Part shown: positions 662-30,374 of the stretch, piece after piece
Layout of the letters: every line of letters starts with the position of its first letter
How positions within the stretch are numbered: position 1 is the stretch's first letter
From: Hyphomicrobiales bacterium
Lineage (GTDB): Bacteria > Pseudomonadota > Alphaproteobacteria > Rhizobiales > Beijerinckiaceae
Direction: 5' to 3'
DNA length: 38,172 nucleotides
Assembly: GCA_027484655.1 (NCBI GenBank)
Contig: JAIXSM010000012.1
Span: forward strand, 1 to 38,172
Notes under the pieces: generated by a model
Database searches by the model: none
Seen by the model: only the letters and a program-made list of their open reading frames with translations
Told to the model about the DNA's origin: nothing
Made by a program: the position numbers and the translations under genes

Positions 662-2068
662 ATGACCAACAGCATCCAATCCGTTCACGTGATCGGCGGG
701 GGGCTCGCCGGCTCCGAAGCCGCATGGCAAATCGCAGAGGCCGGCGTCCCCGTGACGCTCCACGAAATGCGGCCCCACCGCAAAACCGACGCGCACCAAA
801 CCGACGGGCTTGCGGAGCTTGTTTGCTCCAACTCGTTCCGGTCCGACGATTCGGACCAGAACGCCGTGGGCCTCATCCACCATGAGATGCGCCGACTTCG
901 CTCGCTCATCATGCGCTGCGCCGACGCCAATCAGGTGCCCGCCGGCGGCGCCCTTGCGGTGGACCGCGACGGCTTCTCTGCGGCCGTGACGGCCGCACTA
1001 GAAGCTCATCCGCTGATTGAAGTTGTTCGCAAAGAGGTTGAGATCGCCAGCTCAATTGATTGCGATATAAAGATAGTTGCCACTGGCCCGCTAACGTCTG
1101 CCGCCCTTGCTACGGAGATCGCCGGCTACACCGGCGACGAGGGCCTGGCGTTCTTTGACGCCATTGCGCCGATCGTCCACCGCGAGTCGATCGATATGAA
1201 CGTCGCCTGGTTCCAGTCCCGCTACGACAAGGTGGGTCCGGGCGGTTCGGGGGCGGACTACATCAACTGCCCAATGACGCGCGAGCAGTACGAGGCGTTT
1301 GTGGACGCCCTGCTCGCCGGCGAGAAAACCAGCTTCAAGGAGTGGGAGGGCACGCCCTACTTCGACGGCTGCCTGCCAGTGGAGGTCATGGCCGAGCGCG
1401 GCCGGGAGACCCTGCGCCATGGCCCCATGAAGCCCATGGGCCTGACCAACGCGCACAACCCGACCGTGAAGCCCTACGCCGTGGTCCAACTGCGGCAGGA
1501 CAATGCGCTGGGCTCGCTCTACAACATGGTCGGTTTTCAAACGAAGCTGAAGCACGCGGAGCAAAAGCGCGTGTTCCGCATGATCCCGGGTCTGGAGGGA
1601 GCGGAGTTCGCCCGCCTCGGCGGGCTCCACCGCAACACCTACATCAACTCCCCGCGCCTTCTGGATCCGCTGTTGCGACTGAAGGCTGATCCGCGCATCC
1701 GCTTCGCGGGCCAGATCACCGGATGCGAGGGTTATGTGGAGAGCGCAGCCATCGGCCTTGTCGTCGGTCGCATCGCCGCCGCCGAGCGTCTGGGCGCGGC
1801 GTTCTCCCCGCCGCCGCCGACAACCGCCCTTGGCGCTCTCATCGGCCACCTGACCGGCGGGCACATCGAGACCATCGACGCCGGCCCCCGTTCCTTTCAG
1901 CCCATGAACGTGAACTTCGGGCTGTTTCCGCCCCTCACGGAGGCTGTCACGTCGCCGGAGGGCCGCAGGTTGCGCGGCGCCGACAAGGCGGCAGCGCGCA
2001 AGCGCGCGCTCACCGCCCGCGCCAAGCGTGATCTGGAGGCATGGATCGCAAATCCGGGTCGCAGCTGA
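662..2068 (+). CDS. trmFO: Folate/FAD-dependent tRNA (uracil-54-C5) methyltransferase TrmFO
   Basis: TrmFO makes ribothymidine at U54 of the tRNA T-loop, using methylene-tetrahydrofolate as carbon donor and FADH2 as reductant, in the cytoplasm. The 468-residue length is normal for the family. Visible signatures are the FAD dinucleotide-binding motif [12 protein letters not shown] (residues 10-21), the [12 protein letters not shown] block with Cys55, and [12 protein letters not shown] with Cys203; these two conserved cysteines match the pair implicated in catalysis. The ATG at 662 follows the terminator of the previous gene directly. The gene converges with the NDUFAF6-like gene, leaving a 12-base gap. 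In alphaproteobacteria this gene (old name gid) is often found near secDF, as here. Confidence 0.95.
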
Positions 2069-2080
2069 GCTTCCGGCGGG

Positions 2081-2944
2081 TCAAAGCCGCCGGGACGCCC
2101 GCCACAGCCGCCATTGCCGGCGCCATTGCGGCAGAGACAAGCGCGGGCGGAAGGGATCCTCTCCCGCGCCGCGCTTCACCAGCGGATCGACCAGAGCGAG
2201 CGGCAAAAGCGCGACGCGTCCCGCTGGCGCCATCGCGCGGGCGGCGCTCCACGCCCGGGTTGCGTGGTCGCGCGCGATCTGTCGCAGTTCATCCACGGCC
2301 GCGATCATCGCGGGCGACGACAGGCCCGCTGCCGCCGCCTCGGGCAGCGCCCCATGGCGCGCAAGCACGTCGGCCGGGAGATAACAGTTCCCCCGCGCAG
2401 CAAACATCGGAAGGTCCGCAATGATTCGCGCAACGCCGAGGGCGACGCCCGCGTGACCGGCGGCCTCGGCGCCACCGGGATCCTCGCCGCCAGCCGCGAT
2501 GATCGAGGCCAGACGAAAGAGCGCGGAGACCGTCTCGCCGCAGTAACCCTCCAGATCATTGAGGCTCGGCATGGGGTCTGCGTACAGGTCGGCCCGGCGC
2601 GCCTCTGCGAGCGCGACGAGAGGGGCGACCGGGAGTCGGAACCGGGCGATGGTGTCGAGCACCGCGGCGCCGACCGGGTGCGAAGCCGCCTCGCCCGCGC
2701 GAGCGCCTTCCAGCGCTTCGATCCACCACTGGATGCGAATCTCGCCGAGCGTCGGCTGGGAGACAATCTCCGGGATGCGCGCGATCTCGCGTGAGAAAGC
2801 GTACAGCGCATGGATATGGCGACGCGTTTGGGAGGGGGCGAACAGGGTCGCAAGCCAGATGTCCCGGTCGGCGTCGGAGCCGCCGCGCAGGCTCTCCTCA
2901 CAGGCGGCGTAAGCGCCCTCCAAAATGCGCTGGTCCTCGCTCAT
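2081..2944 (-). CDS. Squalene/phytoene-synthase-fold protein of the NDUFAF6 type
   Basis: This 287-residue protein has the trans-isoprenyl diphosphate synthase (squalene/phytoene synthase) fold but not the chemistry. Where true synthases have the first Asp-rich motif, it reads AFSREIARIPEIVSQPTLGEIR (residues 49-70). The second Asp-rich motif is replaced by ARIIADLPMFAARGNCYLP (residues 172-190). That pattern, with LPADVLARHG following, resembles the human complex I assembly factor NDUFAF6 (C8orf38) rather than CrtB or HpnC/D. Its ATG overlaps the stop of the upstream NDUFAF3-like gene by four bases (ATGA, 2941-2944), so the two are translationally coupled. Role in complex I assembly is inferred from homology; a catalytic isoprenoid role is unlikely. 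Confidence 0.8.
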   Translation of the reverse strand: MSEDQRILEGAYAACEESLRGGSDADRDIWLATLFAPSQTRRHIHALYAFSREIARIPEIVSQPTLGEIRIQWWIEALEGARAGEAASHPVGAAVLDTIARFRLPVAPLVALAEARRADLYADPMPSLNDLEGYCGETVSALFRLASIIAAGGEDPGGAEAAGHAGVALGVARIIADLPMFAARGNCYLPADVLARHGALPEAAAAGLSSPAMIAAVDELRQIARDHATRAWSAARAMAPAGRVALLPLALVDPLVKRGAGEDPFRPRLSLPQWRRQWRLWRASRRL

Positions 2945-3324
2945 GGGGACGCGATCAGAAGCGCCGCGACCTTGCGGCCCTCGCCCAGAAGGATGTTGTA
3001 GGTCGAAACCGCATGGGTCGTGGCCATGGGATCGACGCCAATCCCGCGCTGCTTGAGCGCAAGGCGCAGTGACCGCGCGGGGAGCACCAGAGAGGCTCCG
3101 GTCCCAAGCAGCAGGATCTGCACCTCGCCGGCGGGCTCGTCGAACAAAGGCGCCAGGAGCGCCTAGGCAATCTGATCGGGCGAGGCGATGTCCACGGCGC
3201 GCACGCCCGAGGGAGCCGCGAGAATCGACCCGCGATGAGACATGCCCCCGAACCGGAACCCACCCGAGCCGTAGCCCTCAATGGCGTGACGACCCGGCAG
3301 AAAACCCTCGTACTTACGCTCCAT
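2941..3324 (-). pseudogene. DUF498/Mth938-like (NDUFAF3-type) gene interrupted by an in-frame amber codon
   Basis: Read from the ATG at 3324 the frame encodes a complete 127-codon DUF498 protein, except that codon 54 is TAG (complement of 3163-3165). Before it are the family signatures GYGSGGFRF and MSHRGSILAAPSG. After it come EVQILLLGTGASLVLP and the C-terminal STYNILLGEGRKVAALLI, all in the same frame with no indel. A ribosome-binding site (GAGGAG) precedes the ATG and the TGA stop overlaps the next start (ATGA). The family includes human NDUFAF3, a complex I assembly factor. The lesion may be a recent nonsense mutation, a base-call error, or suppressed. A TTG at 3147 could restart the last 68 residues, giving a truncated protein. 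Confidence 0.85.
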
Positions 3325-3372
3325 GGCTCCTCAGTCCCCGACACGAACTCCGGGAGAGACAGAGCGCTTGCG

Positions 3373-4314
3373 TCAGGCGGCTTCATTCGTCGAGGACGCG
3401 CCCGGGCGATCCTGCTCCGGCTGGCTGGGCGCGCCAAGGTAGATCAGGATCGGCGCGCAGATGAAGATGGACGAATACACGCCGATTGTGATGCCGAACA
3501 TCATCGAGAACGAGAACGACTGAATGACATGCCCGCCGAAGATGGCCAGCGCGCCAAGCGCCATGATGGTTGTCGTCGACGTCATGATGGTGCGCGAGAG
3601 AACGGCGTTCACGGAGGCGTCGATGATTTCCGCCATTCCCATGCGCTTGTACTTGCGCAGCATCTCCCTGATGCGGTCCAGCACCACGACGGTTTCGTTC
3701 AGCGATACGCCCACAATGGTCAGAATCGCCGCAATCGACGTGATGTTGAACTCCAGCCGGGTCAGGGCGAAAAAGCCCATGGTCAGCAGCAGATCGTGCA
3801 TCGTCGCGATAACGGCGGCCACCGCGAGTTGCCACTCGTAGCGGAACCATAAGTACGTCAGCACCGCGATGATGGACAGCACCACGCCCAGAGTGCCCGA
3901 CTGCACGAGTTCGGCCGACACGCGCGGACCGACCACCTCGACCCGGCGGAACTCGTAGGCGTCACCAACCGCCTCGCGAACCTTGGCGACTGCGACCTGC
4001 TGCGCTGCATCTCCGCCCGGCTGGAGCTTGATGCGGAAGGTCACGTCCTGCCCGCCGCCGAACGCCTGAACTTCCACCTCGCCGAGGGCGAGCTTGTCGC
4101 CCAACCCGCGCAGGGTCGCCATGTCGGCCTGGCCCTGCTTGGCGCGCAACTCCATGAGCGTGCCGCCGGCAAAATCAATGCCGTAGTTCAGCCCCAGCAG
4201 AAGAAATCCAACCACCGACACGATCGACATGAACGCCGACAGCGGGTAGCTCACGCGGCGCAGCCGCATGAAGCCGATTTTCGTGTTGTCGGGCGCGAGC
4301 CGGAAACGAAGCAT
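3373..4314 (-). CDS. secF: Protein translocase subunit SecF
   Basis: SecF pairs with SecD in the inner membrane and uses the proton motive force to complete Sec-dependent export. The 313-residue protein shows the SecF signature GIDFAGGTLMELR just after the first membrane helix, a periplasmic domain, and the C-terminal helices with the conserved stretch GVSLNETVVVLDRIRE. The start is placed at 4314 (MLRFRLAPDN), because GAGAGG overlapping the secD stop lies a few bases upstream; the frame is open further but that extension lies inside secD. The gap to secD is eight bases. The NDUFAF3-like gene follows after 48 bases. Confidence 0.95.
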   Translation of the reverse strand: MLRFRLAPDNTKIGFMRLRRVSYPLSAFMSIVSVVGFLLLGLNYGIDFAGGTLMELRAKQGQADMATLRGLGDKLALGEVEVQAFGGGQDVTFRIKLQPGGDAAQQVAVAKVREAVGDAYEFRRVEVVGPRVSAELVQSGTLGVVLSIIAVLTYLWFRYEWQLAVAAVIATMHDLLLTMGFFALTRLEFNITSIAAILTIVGVSLNETVVVLDRIREMLRKYKRMGMAEIIDASVNAVLSRTIMTSTTTIMALGALAIFGGHVIQSFSFSMMFGITIGVYSSIFICAPILIYLGAPSQPEQDRPGASSTNEAA

Positions 4315-4322
4315 GACGCCTC

Positions 4323-5933
4323 TCAAATCGGGATGAAGGTGGGACGCTTCCAGCGGTACCAAAGCGCGATCATCATCCGCGTCATGGTGACGGCGGTTAT
4401 AATGGTCGTGACGATGCCGAGGCCGAGCGTGATGGCGAACCCGCGCACGGGGCCGGTTCCGAGGAAGTACAGGATCACGGCCACCACGAACGCCGTAGAC
4501 TGGGAGTCGATGATGGTCGCAAACGCCCGGTTGAAGCCTGCCTCAAGCGCCGAAATGATCGAGCGTCCGAGCTTGGCTTCCTCGCGAATGCGTTCGTAAA
4601 TCAGCACGTTCGCGTCCACCGCGAGGCCGATGGTGAGCACAATGCCAGCGATGCCCGGCAGCGTCAGCGTCGCGTTGAGCAGGATCAGGCCGGCGACGAT
4701 GAAGGTGATGTGAACCAGCAGCGCGAGGTTCGCGAACAGGCCGAAGAGACCGTAAGTGGTCAACATGTAGGTGACCACGAGGACCGAGGCCACGTAGATC
4801 GACATCTTGCCGGCGTCGATGGAGTCTTGTCCGAGGCCCGGGCCAACGGTGCGCTCCTCAACGATGGTCAACTTGGCGGGCAACGCGCCGGCGCGCAGCA
4901 GCACGGCGAGGTCGTTGGCCTGCTGCACTGTGAAACGGCCGGAAATCTGGCCCGAGCCGCCGGTGATCGGCCCGAGGATGCGCGGCGCGGAAATCACCTT
5001 GCCATCGAGAACGATGGCGAAAGGCTTGCCGACGTTGGCGCTCGTCACCTCGCCGAAGCGCTGGCCGCCGCGCAGGTTGAAGCGGAAATTGACCACCGGC
5101 TCGCCGCTTCGCTGGTCGAAGCCGGGCTGGGCGTCGGTCAGATCCTCGCCCTGCACCATCACACGCTTCTCGACCGGGTACTGGCCGGTCGCCTGCCCCT
5201 GCGCGTCATACTCGTTGAGGATGTCCACGTCGGTGGGATTGAAACCCGGGTCGGCCACAAGCCGGAACTCAAGCTTCGCTGTCGTGCCGAGAATGTCTTT
5301 CAGACGCGCCGTGTCCTGAAGGCCAGGCACCTGCACGAGAACGCGGTCGGCGCCCTGCCGCTGGATGTTTGGCTCGGTGGTGCCGAGCGCATCGACGCGA
5401 CGGCGGATGACCTCGATGGTCTGGTCCACCGCGCGGCGGACGCGATCCAGGATCGCCGTGTCGGAGAGCGTGAGCTGCAGGAGCCCCTCCCCGCTTTCGC
5501 GGATGTCGAATATGGGCGGAGCCGCCATGCCAAGCGCGTTGACGCTGCCAGCCGGCTGCGCCTGCTGGCGAAGCTTCGGCAACACGCGGGCGCGCTCGGC
5601 GGCGTCGGGGATGCGCACTTGCACCGTTCGCCCTGTCGCGCCAATGCCGCCCGTGATGCGGACACGCTCCTCGCGAAGGATACGGCGCACGTCGTCGCGC
5701 AGATTCTCGACCTGCGTGCGCGTCACGTCCGCGGCGTCAACCTCAAGCAGGATGTGCGCGCCGCCTTGAAGATCAAGGCCGAGCGTGATCGCCTTGAACG
5801 GAACCCAACTTGGCAACTGCTTGGCGATGGACTCGCGGGTGTCGCCGGGCAAAAAGCTCGGGACCAGCACGAGGAAGGCCGTAAGCGTCATCGCGAGGAT
5901 CGAGGCGACCTTCCATCGAGCGAAACGAAACAT
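4323..5933 (-). CDS. secD: Protein translocase subunit SecD
   Basis: SecD is the large partner of SecF in the accessory translocase complex. The 536-residue protein has an N-terminal membrane helix (about residues 10-28) and the hallmark GLDLQGGAHILLEVD (residues 52-66). A large periplasmic P1 domain comes next, then a membrane block containing GIVLTIGLAVDANVLIYERIREE and the terminal TGPVRGFAITLGLGIVTT. Length fits the alphaproteobacterial form. It lies between yajC and secF in the standard yajC-secD-secF order. A 491-codon frame is open antisense to it, which I treat as a composition artefact. Confidence 0.96.
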   Translation of the reverse strand: MFRFARWKVASILAMTLTAFLVLVPSFLPGDTRESIAKQLPSWVPFKAITLGLDLQGGAHILLEVDAADVTRTQVENLRDDVRRILREERVRITGGIGATGRTVQVRIPDAAERARVLPKLRQQAQPAGSVNALGMAAPPIFDIRESGEGLLQLTLSDTAILDRVRRAVDQTIEVIRRRVDALGTTEPNIQRQGADRVLVQVPGLQDTARLKDILGTTAKLEFRLVADPGFNPTDVDILNEYDAQGQATGQYPVEKRVMVQGEDLTDAQPGFDQRSGEPVVNFRFNLRGGQRFGEVTSANVGKPFAIVLDGKVISAPRILGPITGGSGQISGRFTVQQANDLAVLLRAGALPAKLTIVEERTVGPGLGQDSIDAGKMSIYVASVLVVTYMLTTYGLFGLFANLALLVHITFIVAGLILLNATLTLPGIAGIVLTIGLAVDANVLIYERIREEAKLGRSIISALEAGFNRAFATIIDSQSTAFVVAVILYFLGTGPVRGFAITLGLGIVTTIITAVTMTRMMIALWYRWKRPTFIPI

Positions 5934-5966
5934 GAGCGGCTATCCGATTCGGGTCCCGGGCGAAGA

Positions 5967-5986
5967 GAGGCGGAACACGCCGCCTC
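5967..5986 (-). other. Intercistronic stem-loop between yajC and secD
   Basis: Seven-base arms GAGGCGG (5967-5973) and CCGCCTC (5980-5986) with a six-base loop lie in the 65-base yajC-secD gap. There is no T-run, so it may act as an attenuating or mRNA-stabilising stem rather than a full terminator. Confidence 0.35.
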
Positions 5987-5998
5987 CCTGAAGAAAAC

Positions 5999-6325
5999 TC
6001 AGTCCTTGGCCGGCTCGCCCTTTGAGCGAACCTCGGCGACCATGGCGCGAACCAGACGGACGCGCGTCTCCGGCGCCAGCTCGATCTCGACCTCGTTGTC
6101 GTCGATGACTTTGGTGACCTTGCCGACGAACCCGCCAGAGGTGATGACGGTGTCCCCGCGGCGCAAAGCCTTTATCATCTCCTGATGCGCCTTGGCCCGT
6201 TTCTGCTGGGGCCGCAGGATCAGGAAGTACATGATCAGCAGAATAATGGCGAAGGGGGCGAGCTGGATGAGGAAATCCTGCTGACTGCCGCCGGCCGTCT
6301 GTGCCCAGGCTGGGGTGATGAACAT
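5999..6325 (-). CDS. yajC: Sec translocase accessory subunit YajC
   Basis: YajC is a small inner-membrane partner of SecDF/YidC. The 108-residue product has a short periplasmic N-terminus (MFITPAWAQTAGG), one membrane helix (about residues 18-37) ending in the family motif YFLILRPQQKR, and a cytoplasmic domain with GDTVITSGGFVGKV and the VTKVIDDNEVEIELAPETRVRLVRA strand region split across about residues 70-95. The frame is open upstream to 6505, but the MFIT start matches the usual family N-terminus and avoids overlap with the divergent ATPase gene. It is first in the yajC-secD-secF operon. Confidence 0.93.
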   Translation of the reverse strand: MFITPAWAQTAGGSQQDFLIQLAPFAIILLIMYFLILRPQQKRAKAHQEMIKALRRGDTVITSGGFVGKVTKVIDDNEVEIELAPETRVRLVRAMVAEVRSKGEPAKD

Positions 6326-6503
6326 CGTTATTACGACTCCGCATGGCTTCGCCAGGGCCGGCGAACGTGGACCGCCCCGCAGAAGTGGGCGGACTATAGC
6401 GATGGCCGCCTCGAAAGCAAACGGAACCGCCCGCCTTTGAGCCCACGCCGTTGCACGCCAGCCCGGCGAGGCTGTAAAGCGGCGCAGAACGAGGTTGCAA
6501 CCC

Positions 6504-7403
6504 ATGTCCGATCAAGTCGCCAGCTCCACGAACCATGATGTCGTGGCCTTGCTGTCCCGCATCGCCGCCGCCCTCGAGCGGATGGCGCCCCCCGCCCCCG
6601 TCCAGGCCGATTTCAACGCCGCGGATGCGTTCGTCTGGCGCGCGGAGGGTCGCGTTCTGGCGCCGGCGCAGAGAGTGAACCGCGTCGAAATGGCGCTTCT
6701 GCGCGGCATCGACCTCGTTCGCGATCTGCTGATCGAGAACACCGAGCGATTCGCCAACGGGCTGCCGGCGAACAATGCGCTTCTGTGGGGCGCGCGCGGC
6801 ATGGGGAAGTCTTCCCTCGTCAAGGCGGCGCAGGCGGAAATCAACCGCGCGCGTTCGCCTTCTGCTGCGCTCAAGCTGGTCGAGATTCATCGCGAGGATA
6901 TCGAGAGCCTTCCCACGCTGATGGGCCTGCTGCGTGATTCGCCCTTCCGGTTCGTGGTGTTCTGCGACGACCTGTCGTTCGATGGTCAGGACACCTCGTA
7001 CAAGTCCCTGAAAGCGGCGCTGGAAGGCGGGATCGAGGGGCGGCCCGACAACGTGCTGTTCTACGCCACGTCAAACCGGCGCCATTTGCTGCCGCGCGAC
7101 ATGATGGAGAATGAGCGCTCCACGGCCATCAATCCAAGCGAGGCGGTGGAGGAGAAGGTCTCCCTTTCCGACCGGTTCGGCCTCTGGCTCGGCTTTCACC
7201 GCTGCAGCCAGGACGAATACCTCGCCATGGTGTTTGGCTACTGCGACCATTTCGGCCTCGATGCGGATCGCGAGCAGGTGCGCGCCAGCGCGCTTGAATG
7301 GGCGACCACACGCGGTTCCCGCTCCGGGCGCACCGCGTGGCAGTTCATCCAGGATCTGGCGGGACGGATGGGCAAACAGCTGGACAAGCAGCTCAGCGCC
7401 TGA
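6504..7403 (+). CDS. DUF815-family AAA-type ATPase
   Basis: This 299-residue cytoplasmic ATPase carries a Walker A motif GARGMGKSS (residues 96-104) and a Walker B motif FVVFCDDLSF (residues 150-159). The latter is followed by KSLKAALEGG, a sensor-like FYATSNRRHLLPRD stretch, and the family-typical DRFGLWLGFHRCSQDEYL. These place it in the DUF815 P-loop family, whose function is unknown; in Hyphomicrobiales it is regularly found beside yajC-secDF, as here. The ATG at 6504 is chosen over a TTG at 6495 because GAGG (6491-6494) is correctly spaced. Its 3' end overlaps the convergent sensor kinase gene by 11 bases. Confidence 0.88.
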   Translation: MSDQVASSTNHDVVALLSRIAAALERMAPPAPVQADFNAADAFVWRAEGRVLAPAQRVNRVEMALLRGIDLVRDLLIENTERFANGLPANNALLWGARGMGKSSLVKAAQAEINRARSPSAALKLVEIHREDIESLPTLMGLLRDSPFRFVVFCDDLSFDGQDTSYKSLKAALEGGIEGRPDNVLFYATSNRRHLLPRDMMENERSTAINPSEAVEEKVSLSDRFGLWLGFHRCSQDEYLAMVFGYCDHFGLDADREQVRASALEWATTRGSRSGRTAWQFIQDLAGRMGKQLDKQLSA

Positions 7404-29507: not shown

Positions 29508-30314
29508 TCACGACGGCAGCGTGAACGCCTCGCCTTCCAACTCCAGGAACGTGCGGCCGACACGGCCCACGGTCTTGTAGAAACCAGCGCGCGTCGAAAC
29601 CTCGAGATCCGCAAAGAAGCGGATCGCCCAAGGCTTGATGTGCGCCTCGAAGAACGCCTTCTGTGTCGCGATGTCAGCTTCGATCGCGCCAGAGGCGAAG
29701 TTGGCCATCACATCGCACAGGATCGCGATGTGATCCTCCGGCTCGCTGCGCGGACCATCGCGCTCCACGCCCAGCCGCTCAAGATCAGCGCGCAGGCGCG
29801 CGAGCGGGCGCTCGTGCAGAAAACCGGTGAGATAGTAGGAGCCGTACGGCAGGAACTCGCCGCGCCCGACGCCGATGAACAGGTCAAAATACTCGCGACT
29901 GACATCGTCGGCGTTTGCACGGGACGCGGCGTCGCCAAGCGCAATGTGCGCCATACCCAGCTCAGTGGCGTCGCCGGTGATTGCGGCGACCTGGCGCAGC
30001 GTATCGGCGTCAGGCGCGCGGCCCAGAAGCACGGCGAGCATACCCCACTCGGCTGCACGCAGGCGGTCGATCTCATCGACCTCTGCGCGCTCGGCCTTCG
30101 CCAGACCGCCCTCGCCGCTCGCGGAATTGCCGCCATACAGGTCAGAACGAAGCGTGGCGCGCGACAGCTTCGTCAGCGCTTCAACAGCGGCCACGCGATC
30201 CGCAGGAACGCGCGTCCAGCCGGAAACAGACGGCTGCGATATGCCGAGTCCGCGCGCCAAAGCGGCAACGCCCCCCGCCGCCTCGATGGCGCGAGAAAGC
30301 CCTTCGTCCCTCAT
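29508..30314 (-). CDS. TorD-family chaperone with N-terminal YdaS/Cro-like helix-turn-helix
   Basis: This 268-residue two-domain protein has an N-terminal part (residues 3-60) that reads as a Cro/YdaS-type DNA-binding domain: GGVAALARGLGISQPSVSGWTRVP with the recognition helix at SQPSVSGW. The C-terminal part (about 78-260) is a TorD/DmsD-like Tat proofreading chaperone, with EYFDLFIGVGRGEFLPYGSYY split over 141-161 and the family motif EPEDHIA (191-197). The obvious client is FdhA two genes downstream. The ATG at 30314 is chosen because GGAAGGG precedes it; an ATG at 30347 has no such site. A promoter and an inverted repeat lie just upstream, suggesting the protein may regulate its own operon. 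Confidence 0.88.
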   Translation of the reverse strand: MRDEGLSRAIEAAGGVAALARGLGISQPSVSGWTRVPADRVAAVEALTKLSRATLRSDLYGGNSASGEGGLAKAERAEVDEIDRLRAAEWGMLAVLLGRAPDADTLRQVAAITGDATELGMAHIALGDAASRANADDVSREYFDLFIGVGRGEFLPYGSYYLTGFLHERPLARLRADLERLGVERDGPRSEPEDHIAILCDVMANFASGAIEADIATQKAFFEAHIKPWAIRFFADLEVSTRAGFYKTVGRVGRTFLELEGEAFTLPS

Positions 30315-30374
30315 AACCCTTCCTTGCGCTTCCGTTTGTTTCTTCATGGAATTTGAAACGCTCTTAGAGTTAGC

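Follow-up and report, generated by a model that had tools for sequence, protein, structure and literature searches.

A conserved DUF498/Mth938-domain gene carrying a private in-frame amber codon in a Hyphomicrobiales bacterium

The DUF498/Mth938-like proteins (PF04430; the MTH938/NDUFAF3 family) are known from the PDB structures 2fi9, 2fvt, 2ab1 and 1ihn, and we presume a role in complex I assembly for the NDUFAF3-like members, by analogy with the human protein. We analysed a stretch of 38,172 nucleotides (the window), which is contig C10 of a Hyphomicrobiales genome (G000; 3.59 Mb in 80 contigs, given as 100% complete). Its gene of this family shares the full domain, the length and the conserved residues of its relatives, but differs from them in one in-frame TAG, which is present in none of the 42 other copies in the genus. 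Read on the minus strand from 3324 to 2941, the frame consists of an ATG, 53 residues, the TAG at codon 54 (the complement of 3163-3165), 73 further residues and a TGA, and contains no indel. With the stop read as X, the frame belongs to PF04430 over its whole length (97.1 bits against a cut-off of 33; positions 1-109 of the 109 in the profile), and the homology that continues in the same frame on either side of the TAG is far beyond chance. A profile search of the genome returned this DUF498 match only, containing 1 TAG. Furthermore, GAGGAG is located two bases ahead of the ATG, and the TGA overlaps the start of the next gene as ATGA at 2941-2944. A preliminary description of the locus, made from the sequence alone, had reported an otherwise intact frame with one amber codon and no indel, a preserved ribosome-binding site and a preserved coupling to the next gene, all of which were borne out.

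Comparison of codon 54 in relatives, as the same description had proposed, confined the stop to G000. A scan of the genus with the family model gave a DUF498 match in 43 of 51 genomes, of which 42 were stop-free, including two cut by contig ends (G032 and G044), and only the match in G000 contained a stop. In the family, 145 of 149 genomes had a match and 144 of these were stop-free, the match in G000 being the sole stop-bearing one among the matches listed; the two genome sets share 6 genomes, and best matches were judged. Almost every family genome of good quality has the gene (130 of 132). Seven intact proteins of 127 residues (P0001-P0007), 96-88% identical to the read-through product, were present in a public protein collection, with P0001 standing for 14 member sequences and P0002 for 3. 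We came across no further genome of this species, and the plasmid collection gave no match. The genome of locus L102, with a SecF identity of 88% across 251 residues, had no DUF498 match and hence no closer allele.

When the window's frame was compared with P0001 and P0002, the closest intact proteins, the only place where it differed from both was codons 53-56 (3157-3168, minus strand), and every other difference was from just one of the two. The differences fall in three of these four neighbouring codons and correspond to at least four base differences, which is a lower bound because it was derived from the proteins and silent differences were not counted. The chance of three random changes landing within four codons is P ~0.001. 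Because the consistent differences are confined to codons 53-56, their clustering around the stop points to a single local event and not to gradual decay. With the stop set aside, each residue encoded by the frame recurs in one or more of the 189 homologues in the alignment. In the fetched genus loci, a set with several genomes represented twice and one locus from another genus, none of the 12 invariant columns before the stop and none of the 13 after it is broken. Since a long-dead gene should show more changed conserved residues, a loss at this locus would be recent, and the earlier proposal that the gene was lost very recently survives, with a stop that is private and no invariant column broken. 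By eye, the altered stretch adjoins short inverted repeats (GCCTAGGC; GGCGC..GCGCC). A search of the genome and the window for a second copy of this stretch with at most 3 mismatches, which might have served as a gene-conversion donor, found none, and Rfam over 2000-6500 gave two matches, both under their gathering scores.

The interrupted gene is flanked on the same strand by secF (3373-4317), directly upstream, and secD (4323-5933), followed by yajC, which is encoded within 5940-6890 in a frame other than that of the ORF 5940-6890. The downstream gene (2081-2944), whose start overlaps as ATGA, encodes a 287-residue protein of the squalene/phytoene synthase family (PF00494), which reached none of the subfamily cut-offs (HpnD, 126 bits against 279; HpnC, 58 against 250; three CrtB models, at most 45 against 480-550). 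We take this protein to resemble NDUFAF6, and it is possible that the adjacent NDUFAF3-like and NDUFAF6-like genes form a complex I assembly pair. The order secF, DUF498 and PF00494 gene seen in the window is common in the genus: among 42 loci with DUF498, 38 have SecF immediately upstream, 39 have the PF00494 gene downstream, and 35 have both. In the seven loci without the full order, L021, L083 and L084 are cut by contig ends, L016 and L078 have about 570 bases of flank with no match, L027 gave no match to SecF across 3330 bases, and the SecF of L030 is about 930 bases off. A SecF scan of named genomes gave 24 loci, 20 of them with titles of metagenome bins, mostly Beijerinckiaceae or Hyphomicrobiales/Rhizobiales; none of the titles is known to be that of a pathogen of humans, animals or crops.

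We also counted private changes at the invariant columns of the fetched loci, several of which come twice from one genome, through the genus search and the SecF scan, and one of which (L105) is from another genus. On this basis, private changes are absent from the 200 invariant columns of secD and the 108 of secF, whereas two, both conservative, occur among the 103 of trmFO, and the PF00494 gene has changes at 2 of 29. The change at residue 186 of the PF00494 protein is common to its close kin P0122-P0124. At residue 118 (2591-2593, minus strand), the change is private and needs two bases; this column is identical in 57 fetched loci (some genomes being held twice) and in the four closest proteins, while in a wider set of 119 homologues 4 depart from it as well, one of them having the residue of the window. 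P0122, the 98% copy of the downstream protein, is encoded on an NCBI contig of 40264 bases, and the DUF498 protein of that contig was not among the 68-residue forms found in a search blind to 53-residue N-terminal pieces; it may be inside a cluster of intact proteins, or be a piece invisible to the search. Elsewhere in the window, a 279-residue frame on the minus strand (29508-30347) combines a YdaS/Cro-like helix-turn-helix (residues 17-72) with a Nitrate_red_del domain of the NarJ/TorD-type chaperones (127-245), near genes for molybdopterin oxidoreductase, MobB, MoeA, cytochrome b561, DUF3305, DUF3306 and DUF6352.

A few bases of the contig near 3157-3168 may also be incorrect, owing to shallow coverage, chimeric reads or a mixture of strains, with an intact gene in the living population, and we regard such a consensus or assembly error as a serious possibility, although it falls short of being probable. 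Intact near-identical proteins occur in several clusters, whereas the interrupted form turned up a single time; the changes at the lesion are closely clustered; and, judged by their titles, 20 of the 24 named relatives from the SecF scan are metagenome bins. Furthermore, the two odd spots, codons 53-56 and the multi-base change about 570 bases off in the next gene, could reflect a poor local consensus. On the other hand, the frame contains no indel, and consensus errors do not typically take the form of several clustered substitutions with no indel, while the adjacent secD and secF are unaltered at their invariant columns. In a sample of the genome, in-frame stops were found in none of the 79 ABC_tran and 30 adh_short matches (0 of 109 for the ABC and SDR families together), nor in the 2 PCRF and 1 NuoD matches; these Pfam matches with stop counts were used because a codon-score scan for interrupted genes gave scores too weak to part true from chance. 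Thus, the part of the preliminary description that allowed for an error stands, but the single miscalled base that it had in mind fits poorly with at least four base changes in three of four codons. As the sampled families include no other interrupted gene and the cluster of several substitutions lacks an indel, the sequence makes us lean towards a real null allele rather than a local consensus fault.

Suppression or recoding of the amber codon, by a suppressor tRNA, pyrrolysine or programmed read-through, would instead yield the full-length protein. Both halves of the frame are conserved, and 15 different residues occur at column 54 across the 189 homologues, so that many inserted residues could work. 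However, ARAGORN, run on all matches, assigned a CUA anticodon to none of 42 tRNAs, a set that is incomplete in lacking tRNA-Ile(gat) and tRNA-Ala(tgc), and the single match to a suppressor-like pattern is inside a tRNA-Arg(tct). The best PylS match scored 19.5 bits, far under the cut-off of 178, and the RNA fold around the stop was no better than those of shuffled sequences (z -0.44). Both release factor genes are open; one carries PAT, which we take to be the RF1 motif, and the other, presumably RF2, reads SPY where the SPF motif was sought. TAG ends 39 of 308 ORFs (4 of 28, 29 of 225 and 6 of 55 by sample) picked by GC3 in 438 kb of the genome, not each of which is a proven gene, and TAG is a normal stop in this genome. 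The suppressor tRNA or release-factor change that had been suggested was therefore found neither among these tRNAs nor in the two release factors, and we consider suppression or recoding highly improbable. As nothing suggests read-through, the locus has the look either of a recent break of an ordinary kind or of an error in the sequence. As a separate observation, the missing tRNA-Ile(gat) and tRNA-Ala(tgc) are perhaps explained by an rRNA operon left out of the assembly.

A shorter product starting from TTG 3147 (2944-3147, minus strand; 68 residues), which the preliminary description had pointed out as a possible frame, is exactly the form present in a public gene prediction (P0241; 1 member, on a contig of 38172 bases, equal in length to the window). 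The TTG is 15 bases after the stop, and a protein made by reinitiation past the TAG would contain the part of the sequence in which all 13 invariant columns are kept. However, no Shine-Dalgarno sequence was seen by eye before TTG 3147, and 117 hits included no other 68-residue copy. The structural model of the intact relative P0001 (mean pLDDT 92.0), which matched 2fi9 best with a TM of 0.89, consists of five strands (15-44), a loop (52-57), a short helix (58-61) and an alpha/beta half from residue 70; the sequence profile also matches 2fvt and 2fi9. The Mth938 fold was thus found for the intact relative P0001, and this result concerns P0001 rather than the broken copy of the window. The short form would lack all five strands of the N-terminal layer, together with its many invariant or near-invariant residues, and a working short form is on this model possible but unlikely. 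We accordingly give a functional 68-residue protein, which had been suggested to suffice, a low probability. In the model of P0001, the position of the stop falls in the loop between the fold layers, and because of this location the two parts of a split protein might reassemble. That a lineage of the genus splits an Mth938-fold protein by reinitiation, into a 53-residue beta layer and a 68-residue alpha/beta half, nevertheless seems to us very doubtful indeed.

Among the four readings offered at the outset, recent loss and error thus survive, whereas suppression is unsupported and a functional short form is unlikely. We consider that the stop is probably, though by no means assuredly, a real null allele, recent in origin and private to this genome, in a gene that is normally conserved. 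A small change of several bases at codons 53-56 would have put TAG in frame, and RF1 would most likely end translation at codon 54, to leave a 53-residue piece holding only the N-terminal beta layer. The Mth938-fold protein would consequently not be made, and translation of the ATGA-coupled next gene would probably be lowered. Counted against a null allele are the near-universal presence of the gene in the family, so that null alleles should be rare, the single occurrence of the 68-residue form in the protein collection, and the private two-base change in the next gene.

Loss of complex I was also considered as a cause of decay and was rejected, since a NuoD-type complex I subunit is present and uninterrupted in the genome. 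If the null allele is real, it would suggest that a bacterium with a retained complex I gene can do without the DUF498 protein. The case otherwise matters little beyond annotation. There, it serves as a warning that a locus of this kind is annotated by gene callers as a "DUF498 protein" of 68 residues, as in P0241, and that for a lone amber codon in a conserved gene, its privacy, the tRNAs, the release factors and stop usage should be checked before recoding is proposed.

Finally, a null allele is an ordinary kind of event. The locus resembles recently interrupted bacterial genes, which have a single nonsense lesion and are otherwise intact, in that the stop is private, the invariant columns are unharmed and near-identical intact proteins exist elsewhere, but it differs from them in that the stop is within a group of four or more base differences and is not a single point change. 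The lesion, compared at the protein level, also resembles multinucleotide mutations, for example those from template switching at inverted repeats (PMC8604942), a candidate mechanism here: several substitutions lie within a few bases, next to the short inverted repeats noted by eye.
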